NCBI RefSeq assembly: GCF_026712205.1
Contig: NZ_JAPPUW010000005.1
Location: 62,001-126,000 of the forward strand
Length of the DNA stretch: 64,000 bases
Source of the DNA: Pelomonas aquatica
GTDB taxonomy: Bacteria; Pseudomonadota; Gammaproteobacteria; Burkholderiales; Burkholderiaceae_C
Direction of reading: 5' to 3'
Positions 13,453 through 37,535 of the stretch are shown in pieces (the stretch's first letter is position 1; every line of letters begins with the position of its first letter). The notes under the pieces were generated by a model, which searched no databases, was not told where the DNA came from, and worked only from the letters and a program-made list of their open reading frames with translations. Both the position numbers and the translations under genes were made by a program.

Positions 13453-15033
13453 TCAAGCCAGGAACAAGCGGTAGGCCGGGTTGGCGGTTTCGTCCTCGAA
13501 GGGGTAGTTCAGGCCGGCGAGGAAGTCGCGCAGCGCGGCGGCGTCGCCACGCGGCACCTGGATGCCGACGAGGATGCGGCCGTAGTCCGCGCCCTGGTTG
13601 CGGTAGTGGAAGAGGCTGATGTTCCAGTCCGGGTGCATGCTGGACAGGAACTTCATCAGCGCGCCGGGCCGCTCGGGGAAGACGAAGCGGTAGAGGCGCT
13701 CGTCGCGGGCCAGCTCGCTGCGGCCGCCGACCATGTGGCGCACATGCTGCTTGGCGAGTTCGTCGGTGGTCAGGTCCAGCGTCTCGAAGCCGGCCTTCGT
13801 GAAGTTGCGCGCGAGCTTGGCGGCGTCGTCGGGCTTGGCGGTCGCGACGCCGACGAAGATGTGGGCGACGTTGGCGTCCGCGATGCGGTAGTTGAACTCG
13901 GTCACGCTGCGCGGGCCCAGCAGCTCGCAGAAGCGCTTGAAGCTGCCGCGTGCCTCGGGGATGGTGACGGCGAACAGGGCCTCGCGATGCTCGCCGACCT
14001 CGGCCCGCTCGGCGACGAAGCGCAGGCGGTCGAAGTTCATGTTGGCGCCGCAGGTGATGGCGATCAGCGTCTGGCCCTTGGCGCCGGTCGTCGCCGCGTA
14101 CTGCTTGACGGCGGCGACGCTCATCGCGCCCGAGGGCTCCAGGATGGAGCGCGTGTCCTCGAAGACGTCCTTGATGGCCGCGCAGACGGCGTCGGTGTCG
14201 ACGACGATGTAGTCGTCCACCAGCTCGCGGGCGATGCGGAAGGTCTCCTCGCCGACCAGCTTGACGGCGGTGCCGTCGGCGAACAGGCCGACGTCGTTGA
14301 GCTGCACGCGCTTGCCGGCCCTGACCGAACGCAGCATGGCGTCGGAGTCGGTGGTCTGCACGCCGATGATCTTGATCTCGGGGCGCAGCGCCTTCACGTA
14401 GGCGGCCACGCCGGAGATCAGGCCGCCGCCGCCGATGGCGACGAAGATCGCGTCGATGGGGCCGGGGTGCTGGCGCAGCAGCTCCATCGCGATCGTGCCC
14501 TGGCCGGCGATGACGTCGGGGTCGTCGAAGGGGTGGACGAAGGTCAGGCTCTGCTCGCGCTCCAGCTCCAGCGCATGGCCGTAGGCGTCGGTGAAGCTCT
14601 CGCCGAACAGCACGACCTCGCCGCCATGGCCCTTGACCGCGTCGACCTTGACCTGGGGCGTCGTCACCGGCATCACGATGACGGCCCGGCAGCCGAGCTT
14701 TTTGGCCGACAGCGCGACGCCCTGGGCATGGTTGCCGGCGGATGCGCAGATGACGCCGGCGGCGCGCTGCTCAGCCGTCAGATGGGCCATCTTGTTGTAG
14801 GCGCCACGCAGCTTGAAACTGAAGACGGCCTGCTCGTCCTCGCGCTTGAGCCAGACCTTGTTGGCGAGGCGCCTGGACAGCTTGGGCGCGGCCGCGAGCT
14901 CGGTTTCGCGGGCCACTTCGTAGACCCGGGCGTTCAGGATGCGCTGCAGATAGCTGCTGCCGGGCGGCAGCATCGCGGGCACCTGGGCGGCGGCCTTGGT
15001 CACGGGCGGGCGGCGGCGCGAGGGGGCGCTCAT
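13453..15033 (-). CDS. ilvA: Threonine ammonia-lyase (threonine dehydratase), biosynthetic
   Basis: 526 residues from ATG 15033 (MSAPSRRRPPVTKAAAQ); the open frame extends further upstream but into the non-coding leader. This PLP enzyme converts L-threonine to 2-oxobutanoate and ammonia, the first step of isoleucine synthesis. The PLP-lysine motif is FSFKLRGAYNK, the phosphate-binding Gly loop is GGGGLISG, and SAGNHAQGVA is conserved. The C-terminal half (from about residue 345) holds two ACT-like regulatory domains (TIPEARGSFKRFCELLG; FPERPGALMKFLSSMHPDW), which suggests isoleucine feedback control. It is transcribed alone, downstream of the small-RNA candidate. Confidence 0.95.
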   Translation of the reverse strand: MSAPSRRRPPVTKAAAQVPAMLPPGSSYLQRILNARVYEVARETELAAAPKLSRRLANKVWLKREDEQAVFSFKLRGAYNKMAHLTAEQRAAGVICASAGNHAQGVALSAKKLGCRAVIVMPVTTPQVKVDAVKGHGGEVVLFGESFTDAYGHALELEREQSLTFVHPFDDPDVIAGQGTIAMELLRQHPGPIDAIFVAIGGGGLISGVAAYVKALRPEIKIIGVQTTDSDAMLRSVRAGKRVQLNDVGLFADGTAVKLVGEETFRIARELVDDYIVVDTDAVCAAIKDVFEDTRSILEPSGAMSVAAVKQYAATTGAKGQTLIAITCGANMNFDRLRFVAERAEVGEHREALFAVTIPEARGSFKRFCELLGPRSVTEFNYRIADANVAHIFVGVATAKPDDAAKLARNFTKAGFETLDLTTDELAKQHVRHMVGGRSELARDERLYRFVFPERPGALMKFLSSMHPDWNISLFHYRNQGADYGRILVGIQVPRGDAAALRDFLAGLNYPFEDETANPAYRLFLA

Positions 15034-15201
15034 CGGGTCTCCATGCAGTCTTGTTGCGGCGCCGCATGATAAGAGACGCACCCTTCGCAACCGGCGTCGC
15101 GTCGCTTGCGGCGCGGATGGGCCTGTTGGCAACGGGCTGCAGGCCCGGGGCGCGTCAGCGCCAGGCGATTCGCGCAGCGGGTCGCTTGCCAACTGACCAG
15201 C
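15034..15201 (-). promoter_or_regulatory. ilvA upstream region with leader hairpin
   Basis: The 334-nt stretch between ilvA and the OsmC gene contains the small-RNA candidate (15202-15324 with its promoter) and this leader. The clearest structure is a hairpin pairing GGGCCTG (15119-15125) with CAGGCCC (15140-15146). I see no convincing -35/-10 pair for ilvA, although TATCAT occurs on the minus strand near 15070. No leader peptide rich in Ile, Val or Leu codons is apparent. Confidence 0.3.
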
Positions 15202-15288
15202 AAAAAAAACCCGAGCTCTTGCAAGCTCGGGTTGAATCCACCATGGAGGCGGTGGAGGAGACAATCGGTGCGAAAGCGTTTTCGCTTG
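15202..15288 (-). ncRNA. Candidate small regulatory RNA with anti-Shine-Dalgarno CCUCC motifs
   Basis: On the minus strand a promoter (-35 TTGCGG at 15324-15319, 18-nt spacer, -10 TAAACT at 15300-15295) would start a transcript near 15288. It then shows, in order: hairpin GCGAAAACGCTTTCGC (15285-15270); an open stretch with CTCCTCC (15260-15254); a hairpin with stem UCCACC/GGUGGA (15256-15237) and loop GCCUCCAU; and a 10-bp intrinsic terminator (15233-15208) followed by a run of eight U (the first two pairing at the stem base). The loop therefore displays CCUCC, complementary to ribosome-binding sites. There is no ORF. Architecture resembles the anti-SD hairpin small RNAs known from alphaproteobacteria; identity with a described family is not established. 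Confidence 0.6.
15208..15233 (-). terminator. Intrinsic terminator of the small-RNA candidate
   Basis: The arms AACCCGAGCT and AGCTCGGGTT form a 10-bp stem with loop CTTGCA. On the minus strand it is followed by eight T in a row (15209-15202). It is directional: on the plus strand only TTGAA follows. It lies upstream of ilvA and does not end any protein gene, which is the main reason to suspect a short transcript of its own. Confidence 0.85.
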
Positions 15289-15367
15289 GTTGGCAGTTTA
15301 GCGCCGAGTTATGCTGCGCCGCAATATTTTTTCTGTGAACGAATTGGAGCTTTGACTCTAGACCTCT

Positions 15368-15799
15368 ATGGAATGCACTGTCAGTTGGTTGGGGGCCGAG
15401 GGGCCGAGCGGCATGAGCTTCGTCGCCGAGACGGGGAGCGGCCACGTGCTGTCCATGGACGGCGCGCCGGACGGTGGCGGGCGCAACCTGGCGCCGCGCC
15501 CGATGGAAACCGTGCTGGCCGGCACCGGCGGCTGCACGGCCTATGACGTCGTGCTGATCCTGAAGCGGGGCCGCCACGACGTGCGCGGCTGCAAGGTGGT
15601 GCTGAAGGCCGAGCGCGCCACCAGCGACCCCAAGGTCTTCACGGCCATCCATTTCCACTTCGTCGTCAGCGGCAAGGGGCTGAAGCCCGAGATCGTCGAG
15701 CGTGCCATCGCGCTGTCGCACGAAAAGTATTGCTCGGCCACGGCGATGCTGGCCAAGACCTCGGCCATCAGCACCTCCTTCGAGATCGCCGAGGCCTGA
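15368..15799 (+). CDS. OsmC/Ohr family peroxiredoxin-like protein
   Basis: 143 residues. OsmC-family proteins are cytoplasmic thiol-dependent peroxide reductases. The two conserved cysteines are present: Cys56 in GTGGCTAYDVV and Cys122 in HEKYCSATAMLAKT. The family-typical NLAPRPMETVLAGTGGC is also intact. It belongs to the YhfA-like branch rather than Ohr, judging by its length and the KYCSATAML context. It is a single gene, divergent from the small-RNA candidate and convergent with coq7 across a large palindrome. Confidence 0.88.
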   Translation: MECTVSWLGAEGPSGMSFVAETGSGHVLSMDGAPDGGGRNLAPRPMETVLAGTGGCTAYDVVLILKRGRHDVRGCKVVLKAERATSDPKVFTAIHFHFVVSGKGLKPEIVERAIALSHEKYCSATAMLAKTSAISTSFEIAEA

Positions 15800-15965: not shown

Positions 15966-16628
15966 TCAAACGTGGTGGGCCACGGTCGTCATGACCCTGG
16001 CCGCAGCGCGCATCAGGCCCCGGATCGGGGCGGGCAGAGGCAGCGCGCCGGCCGCCAGTGCCGCGTCGGCATGTTCGGCTTCCTCGCGTTTCATCTGGTC
16101 GACTATGGCGCGTGACGGCGCATCGTCGGCGGGCAGGCGGTCCAGGTGGGAGGCCAGATGCGCCTCGACCTGACGCTCGGTCTCGACGACGAAGCCCAGG
16201 CTCCATTTGTCGCCGGCCAGCCCGGCCAGGCTGCCCCAGGCAAAGGCGCCGGCCCACCAGAGCGGTGCGAGATGGCTGGTGTGGGTGTCCAGTTCGGCGA
16301 CGCGTTCGGCGGTCCAGGCCAGGTGGTCGAGTTCTTCCTGCGCGGCCTTCTCGAAGTGCTGCCGCAACTCATCGCTGCGGCTGAACAGCGCCTGCGACTG
16401 GTAGAGCGCCTGGGCGCAGATCTCGCCGACGTGGTTGACCCGCATCAGTGCGCCGGCCTCGCGGGTGTCGGCTGGCGGCAACTGCGTCGCCGGCAGGCCC
16501 GCGGCAGGCGACGGGCGGGTGGCCCGCGCCGTCGTGAAGACCGTGCGCAGGCCGGCGTCCAGCGCGCACAGGCAACGGTCGCCCAGGCTCAGGCTGTGGA
16601 GATGGGGTGGGCTTGCGAGCGATTGCAT
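15966..16628 (-). CDS. coq7: 2-polyprenyl-3-methyl-6-methoxy-1,4-benzoquinone monooxygenase Coq7
   Basis: 220 residues. Coq7 (COQ7/CatM type) is a membrane-associated di-iron hydroxylase of ubiquinone synthesis. Iron ligands of the ferritin-like fold are visible: MRVNHVGEICAQ (Glu), AAQEELDHLAW (ExxH), ETERQVEAHL (Glu) and MKREEAEHADAAL (ExxH). The N-terminal 50 residues are less conserved. It is a single gene, convergent with osmC and divergent from the first porin. Confidence 0.95.
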   Translation of the reverse strand: MQSLASPPHLHSLSLGDRCLCALDAGLRTVFTTARATRPSPAAGLPATQLPPADTREAGALMRVNHVGEICAQALYQSQALFSRSDELRQHFEKAAQEELDHLAWTAERVAELDTHTSHLAPLWWAGAFAWGSLAGLAGDKWSLGFVVETERQVEAHLASHLDRLPADDAPSRAIVDQMKREEAEHADAALAAGALPLPAPIRGLMRAAARVMTTVAHHV

Positions 16629-37473: not shown

Positions 37474-37535
37474 AACGTTGCCGCATTTGTTGCGCTGCAG
37501 TACGCTCGCGCCCTGTTGTGTTCCAGGAGGGCGCC

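Follow-up and report, generated by a model that had tools for sequence, protein, structure and literature searches.

A PhaR-like operator at the promoter of an S17-type RF02278 small RNA in Pelomonas aquatica: a probable link between PHB state and a known RNA family

The stretch of Pelomonas aquatica DNA analysed here, called the window, is 64,000 nucleotides long, and the interval between its ilvA gene and a gene for an OsmC-family protein raises the question of which RNA is made there and which signal governs its synthesis. The RNA belongs to an already named family, RF02278, and a palindrome resembling the operator of the regulator PhaR covers the -35 box of its promoter. The reading which we consider probable is that the locus encodes an S17-type RF02278 sRNA, that a PhaR operator covers its sigma-70 promoter, that PHB relieves the repression, and that the sRNA then acts as a brake on uptake. 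The background on the RNA family, S17, PhaR, PHB and MmgR is taken from PMC4603805, PMC5688073, PMC11722255 (a preprint), PMC10987360, PMC7011215, PMC12849132, PMC12542648, PMC8401924, PMC7143759, PMC9049629, PMC5760752, PMC4684311 and PMC3079617.

The predicted primary transcript is about 87 nt long and lies on the minus strand at 15202..15288, where the start near 15288 is placed from the -10 box. The promoter consists of a -35 hexamer TTGCGG (15319..15324) and a -10 hexamer TAAACT (15295..15300) separated by 18 nt, also on the minus strand. The transcript contains, in order and all on the minus strand, a 5' hairpin specific to the long form (15270..15285), anti-Shine-Dalgarno site 1 with the sequence GUCUCCUCC (15254..15262), hairpin 1 (15237..15256) with CCUCC in its loop as anti-Shine-Dalgarno site 2 (15245-15249), and an intrinsic terminator with its T tract (15202..15233, the hairpin at 15208-15233), which is given by the fold as well as by a terminator scan. 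The earlier note had described this unit, and each of its parts could be located. It had also put CUCCUCC in an open stretch, which holds for the 5' part; in the fold the stem of hairpin 1 begins with the last UCC.

The 87-nt RNA folds with -34.9 kcal/mol compared to -19.6 +/- 2.87 kcal/mol for shuffled sequences (z = -5.33), and 0 of 200 shuffles did as well. The terminator-like site is the only one in 15040-15370, a count which is not rare on its own (0.5 expected). A sigma-70 consensus scan of 15040-15370 found no promoter, and it is the conservation of the -10 box in homologues, rather than the consensus scan, that supports the promoter: TANNNT is found at the -10 spacing in 46 of the 70 homologues which have the operator-like site, discussed below, at -155 to -45 (7.3 expected). 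Among the source-genus relatives compared the -35 position reads TTGC(A/G/C).. and the -10 box is TA(A/C/G)ACT in most.

The RNA was identified by cmscan as a member of RF02278 (Betaproteobacteria toxic sRNA); its score is 60 bits, the cut-off being 50 (E 1.4e-9). The match, at 15201..15263 on the minus strand, covers the full model (1-64 of 64) and coincides with the predicted short processed form, named S17S in Bordetella; nothing else in the 64-kb window matches Rfam at the gathering threshold. The suggestion that this betaproteobacterial form might be undescribed is thus at variance with its membership in a named family. The two-hairpin form of RF02278, with a CU-rich open stretch and a CU-rich loop, is seen in the fold and in the alignment. 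Matches above the cut-off occur in 39 of 60 genomes, mostly from the genus and family and with the source genome counted, and in 114 of 300 genomes of the order (E<=1e-7 in 130 of the 300), compared to 0 of 14 control genomes; the RNA with exposed anti-Shine-Dalgarno motifs that the note had proposed is, accordingly, conserved.

The aligned homologues show which parts are under constraint. The family core starts at UG followed by UCUCCUCC, the UGUCUCC boundary is conserved, and GUCUCCUC is unchanged in all 36 aligned homologues, which were picked for diversity from 151 loci. Three of the six pairs that RNAalifold predicts in hairpin 1 show double changes that preserve pairing, mainly the inner pairs. 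From this 36-sequence alignment RNAalifold did not recover the terminator pairs, and a drift of the alignment in that part is the probable cause. The 5' hairpin is retained in 13 aligned source-genus sequences, and in one of them (L024) the stem is intact with changed bases.

At low scores the family model picks up many more places, 11 in the source genome at E<=10 and some in 53 of 60 relatives at E<=1. These are in considerable part noise, since the controls also match at these levels (13/14 and 8/14), none of them above the cut-off. Two places in the source genome should be mentioned. L002 (C12:181281-181340) is a second RF02278 copy which with 45.4 bits falls under the cut-off and has none of IlvA, OsmC or Coq7 beside it. 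L003 (C30:10570-10607) is a 29-bit RF02278-like element, UUGUCUCCC followed by a terminator, which closely trails an apparent ORF end and may be another element of the 3'UTR type described below. The chromosome of genome G042 has unusually many RF02278 copies: at E<=1e-7 there are 8, and two of these share a strand at a distance of only about 380 nt.

The sRNA gene lies between ilvA, encoding threonine ammonia-lyase (13453..15033, minus; NCBIfam/Pfam), and the gene for the OsmC-family protein (15368..15799, plus), which is followed by coq7 (15966..16628, minus); the latter two were assigned by a protein-domain scan and serve as synteny markers of S17 loci. The three neighbours recur in the source family, where of 26 loci all have IlvA, 25 have OsmC and 23 have Coq7, a contig end accounting for one miss; four loci from other families had OsmC in 3, Coq7 in 1 and IlvA in 0. 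S17 of B. pertussis is located between BP3151 and coq7 according to the published description. A genome search with the published S17 -35 and -10 sequences and then the S17 core retrieved eight S17-type loci (L092-L099), three from Bordetella, two from Achromobacter and three from metagenome assemblies. Coq7 was found at 8/8, OsmC at 7/8 (L096 is a short contig) and IlvA at 0/8. The Coq7/OsmC neighbourhood is common to these loci, and the window RNA is therefore taken as the putative orthologue of S17; this assignment is by neighbourhood, with B. pertussis S17 itself known from its published description.

The same surroundings could suggest that the element is nothing but the end of a neighbouring transcript, its terminator and tail, and that no separate RNA exists, as it is close to both ilvA and osmC. 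We regard this as extremely improbable: osmC points the other way and ilvA is downstream, the element has a conserved promoter of its own and the invariant GUCUCCUC (36/36), and expression of homologues has been published.

A separate sRNA is thus our reading, and a considerable amount has been published about its relatives. RF02278 comprises the toxic or double-hairpin sRNAs ncS03, ncS05, ncS27 and ncS62 of Burkholderia cenocepacia and is also listed for Herbaspirillum seropedicae. In B. cenocepacia all four are expressed, and most of the interactions predicted for them are around ribosome-binding sites; they respond to glucose and starvation and to growth in biofilms, ncS03, ncS05 and ncS27 being up 8.0-, 6.9- and 4.3-fold in glucose medium, and they are predicted to regulate uptake and metabolism of carbohydrates and amino acids. 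S17 is Hfq-dependent and acts as a repressor of a sigma-54 activator; RNase E cleaves it, leaving a form of 67 nt which begins with the U of UGUCUCC; a short processed form has been published for both S17 and ncS27. Of 92 genes affected by S17, 70 are complementary to it at the ribosome-binding site or close by. The S17 promoter is sigma-A dependent and S17 levels are higher in the Bvg-plus mode, BvgA being without effect in vitro. Repression of the promoter in the Bvg-minus mode has been postulated, with the repressor left unnamed. PhaR is not mentioned in the published S17 text, and no direct transcriptional regulator of RF02278 is named in the literature searched.

The family name invites the simple explanation that the RNA is a general growth poison with no metabolic circuit behind it. 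According to citing papers the name "toxic sRNA" stems from a cloning study (Kimelman 2012) and members cloned in E. coli inhibit growth; overexpression of ncS27 likewise reduces growth in planktonic culture. Overexpression of S17S, on the other hand, left exponential growth of E. coli unimpaired and affected the entry into stationary phase only modestly. An operator-like site at the promoter is moreover conserved across the order, which argues for regulated use, and a mere poison seems to us very unlikely.

This operator-like site, which the initial reading of the window had overlooked, is the palindrome ATATTGCGGCGCAGCAT at 15311..15327 on the minus strand; it overlaps the -35 box, so that TTGCGG lies within it, and a palindrome over the -35 box is also seen in the upstream sequences of relatives. 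PhaR is described as a regulator that senses PHB granules; it represses phaP and leaves the DNA for the granules. The source genome encodes PhaR (PF07879, E 6.1e-30) and a phasin (E 2.2e-27). Compared to the published Ralstonia eutropha PhaR motif, YTKNTGCRNYGCANMAR, the window site has 3 mismatches, the limit used by the authors of the motif. At L002, the second copy of RF02278 in the source genome, a PhaR-like site with 2 mismatches lies 19 bp upstream, and there are 0 mismatches at the RF02278 promoters of three relatives.

A strict operator pattern, drawn up after the sRNA promoters had been seen, was found at 19 places in the 5.1 Mb source genome (15 forward and 13 reverse matches), and its reversed control gave 1 forward and 1 reverse match. 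The 19 places include the promoters of the window sRNA, of the second RF02278 copy (on C12) and of the phasin gene; several are inside long ORFs, one of them in an apparent hfq.

The published consensus is too loose at 3 mismatches, matching 117 of 345 background windows of 300 nt (23 of 345 at 2 mismatches). For this reason we used a 17-bp matrix, built solely from the sites in phasin promoters (32 distinct sites from 28 promoters), and the case rests on the test made with it. The window site scores 18.5 bits with this matrix and is the best in the 64 kb. Two other sites in the window were noted: one at 15051-15067 (18.1 bits) immediately in front of the ilvA start, and one at 37487-37503 (16.3 bits) a short distance upstream of a gene which resembles the glutamate synthase large subunit and has a glutamine amidotransferase class-II domain, so that a link between nitrogen assimilation and PHB state is possible.

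In the matrix test we took 151 RF02278 loci, which come from 120 genomes, and scanned 200 nt upstream of each with a threshold set at the top 1% of dinucleotide shuffles, and the genomes were divided by means of a list of 202 PhaR-positive genomes. The 151 loci are the 120 best-ranked further places of the order-wide RF02278 search together with 31 earlier loci; weak family members were therefore hardly sampled. With PhaR in the genome the site was present at 96 of 119 loci (82 of 94 genomes); when PhaR was lacking it was present at 2 of 32 loci (2 of 26 genomes), and one of these two genomes, G158, is 85% complete. Counted by families, the site occurred in at least half of the loci in 15 of 16 families with PhaR compared to 1 of 9 families lacking it (Fisher p 7e-5). 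Background windows of 200 nt exceeded the threshold in 8 of 543 cases. The sites are close to the RNA: in PhaR genomes the nearest 120 nt contained one at 89 of 118 loci, and the interval from -320 to -201 at 16 of 118. No site above the threshold was found at 23 of the 119 loci in PhaR genomes, in the case of L018 because the upstream sequence is 38 nt. Judged by this genome comparison, the operator-like site of RF02278 depends on the presence of PhaR.

This bears on the proposal that the palindrome is read by another regulator and that its likeness to the PhaR operator is incidental. The palindrome is short and G+C rich, and loose matches to the published motif are as common as the background count given above implies. 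That the matrix site is present together with PhaR and nearly absent when PhaR is missing speaks against an incidental likeness, and so does the finding that all 30 phasin genes of a first set have the motif upstream at <=2 mismatches, usually as two sites. In an extended set of 80 phasin loci, 76 have the motif at <=2 mismatches in the 300 nt upstream, compared to the 23 of 345 background windows. We consider another regulator improbable, and PhaR is kept as the candidate.

The S17-type loci point to the same protein. In all eight the -35 sequence TTGCAT is part of TTGCAT(C/T)GCACAAA, which is the PhaR motif with 1-2 mismatches; the search pattern demanded only the TTGCAT of the operator, and the second half-site was outside it. 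PhaR is encoded in all five named genomes of these loci, a count that leaves aside the three metagenome assemblies. PhaR is thus a candidate for the repressor postulated for S17. The paper on the B. cenocepacia double-hairpin RNAs reports an upstream motif common to three of the four which is left unnamed in its main text, and Fig. S3 of PMC5688073 may display it unlabelled; PhaR does not appear in the main text of that paper. Control of RF02278 by PhaR was not found in the main texts searched.

The circuit we propose would work as follows. At low PHB free PhaR would occupy the -35 box and keep the sRNA gene off, in the way described for the phasin gene phaP1. Newly formed PHB granules would bind PhaR, and the sRNA would then be made. 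It would be cut, by RNase E in the case of S17, to a short form starting at UGUCUCCUCC, the two CU-rich sites of which could pair with mRNAs for transport and catabolism at their Shine-Dalgarno sequences, and uptake would be lowered while carbon is stored. In some families the same release of PhaR might also switch on a sibling RNA in the phasin tail. The binding of PhaR, its repressive effect, the processing in the source species and the targets are inferred; it should be noted with respect to the targets that the bare Shine-Dalgarno complement matches too many genes to discriminate among them.

The sign of the PhaR effect is uncertain because PhaR, a dual regulator in R. eutropha, activates phaP3 there. 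The sRNA and its PhaR operator could accordingly be just as described, with PhaR as an activator and the RNA made when PHB is absent. This we find unlikely, as the operator overlaps the -35 box near the position of the repressor site in phaP1, the alphaproteobacterial parallel MmgR is repressed by AniA/PhaR, and ncS03, ncS05 and ncS27 increase in glucose medium. Repression by PhaR, relieved by PHB, remains the preferred sign.

The sibling RNA in the circuit has its origin in the weak matches to RF02278, several of which fall just downstream of phasin genes; these matches at phasin 3' ends led to the observation of an element in the phasin 3'UTR, consisting of UCUCCU(C/U) followed by a T run. 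Phasin 3'UTRs with an RF02278-like hairpin and terminator, all outside the window, were recorded at loci L063-L068, L070, L071, L073 and L076-L080 and at L225, L226, L241, L243, L246, L250, L259 and L273. The element was found in 13 of 16 phasin loci of the source family outside the source genus and in 11 of 50 of other families; in the source genus it was found in 0 of 14, and in the three Bordetella/Achromobacter phasins examined in none. The pattern, which was fixed after examples had been seen, occurred in 8 of 3300 dinucleotide shuffles and in 0 of 66 reversed sequences. In 12 aligned elements of the source family GUCUCCU is invariant, and 12 of the 16 consensus pairs show double changes that preserve pairing. 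An Rfam scan of 20 phasin loci, 19 of them with the element, returned no element at a cut-off; the matches it gave were a cobalamin riboswitch and a 6S RNA in L063, both away from the elements. It is possible that the element is a 3'UTR-derived sibling sRNA of RF02278. It was not found in the main texts searched.

Taken more widely, the observations suggest that PhaR in Burkholderiales runs an RNA arm, in which free-standing RF02278 sRNAs under PhaR operators, joined in some families by siblings at phasin 3' ends that share the UCUCCU start, mute the translation of uptake genes as granules form, and in which PhaR is the unnamed repressor of S17. We give this wider proposal slightly better than even chances. 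A PhaR operator would provide RF02278 with a direct input, the PHB state, which fits the published target classes, and would offer a candidate for the postulated S17 repressor. The RNA family is known; relative to the literature searched, the proposed connection with PhaR and the putative siblings in phasin 3'UTRs are new. How riboregulation takes part in Cupriavidus PHB synthesis is described as undeciphered in a review from 2021.

It remains to compare the RNA with known systems. SorX and SorY (RF02784 and RF02651) share a CCUCC stretch and a terminator with the window RNA, and membership in either family was rejected with 20.5 and 21.8 bits, far under the cut-offs of 46.6 and 111. The RNAs of the cuckoo or CcsR type have anti-Shine-Dalgarno hairpin loops and accompany DUF1127 genes. 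The three neighbouring proteins scanned here are IlvA, OsmC and Coq7, and there is no DUF1127 protein among them.

MmgR (ar8) of Sinorhizobium meliloti is similar in its described function: it is an sRNA with an anti-Shine-Dalgarno loop, is repressed by AniA (PhaR), is linked to phasin and PHB, and limits PHB. It differs from the window RNA in being alphaproteobacterial, of the ar8 family and NtrC-induced, and the likeness noted here is one of function. If PhaR controls RF02278, the Burkholderiales would be a second lineage besides that of MmgR with a PhaR-controlled anti-Shine-Dalgarno RNA.

The B. cenocepacia RNAs ncS03, ncS05, ncS27 and ncS62 as published share with the window RNA the family RF02278, the CU-rich unpaired stretches and the two hairpins. 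Three of these four are described as very short and consist almost only of the two hairpins; the window RNA, unlike those three, has a leader with a third hairpin and is nearer to ncS27. S17 as described is likewise located beside coq7 and has a sigma-70-type promoter, the same 5' core and anti-Shine-Dalgarno sites 1 and 2; OsmC is also adjacent in S17-related loci. The two differ in the leader, which is longer in S17L (190 nt, compared to about 87 nt for the window RNA), and in the loop, which is CCUCCA in the window RNA and CCUCCUCC in the S17-type loci read.
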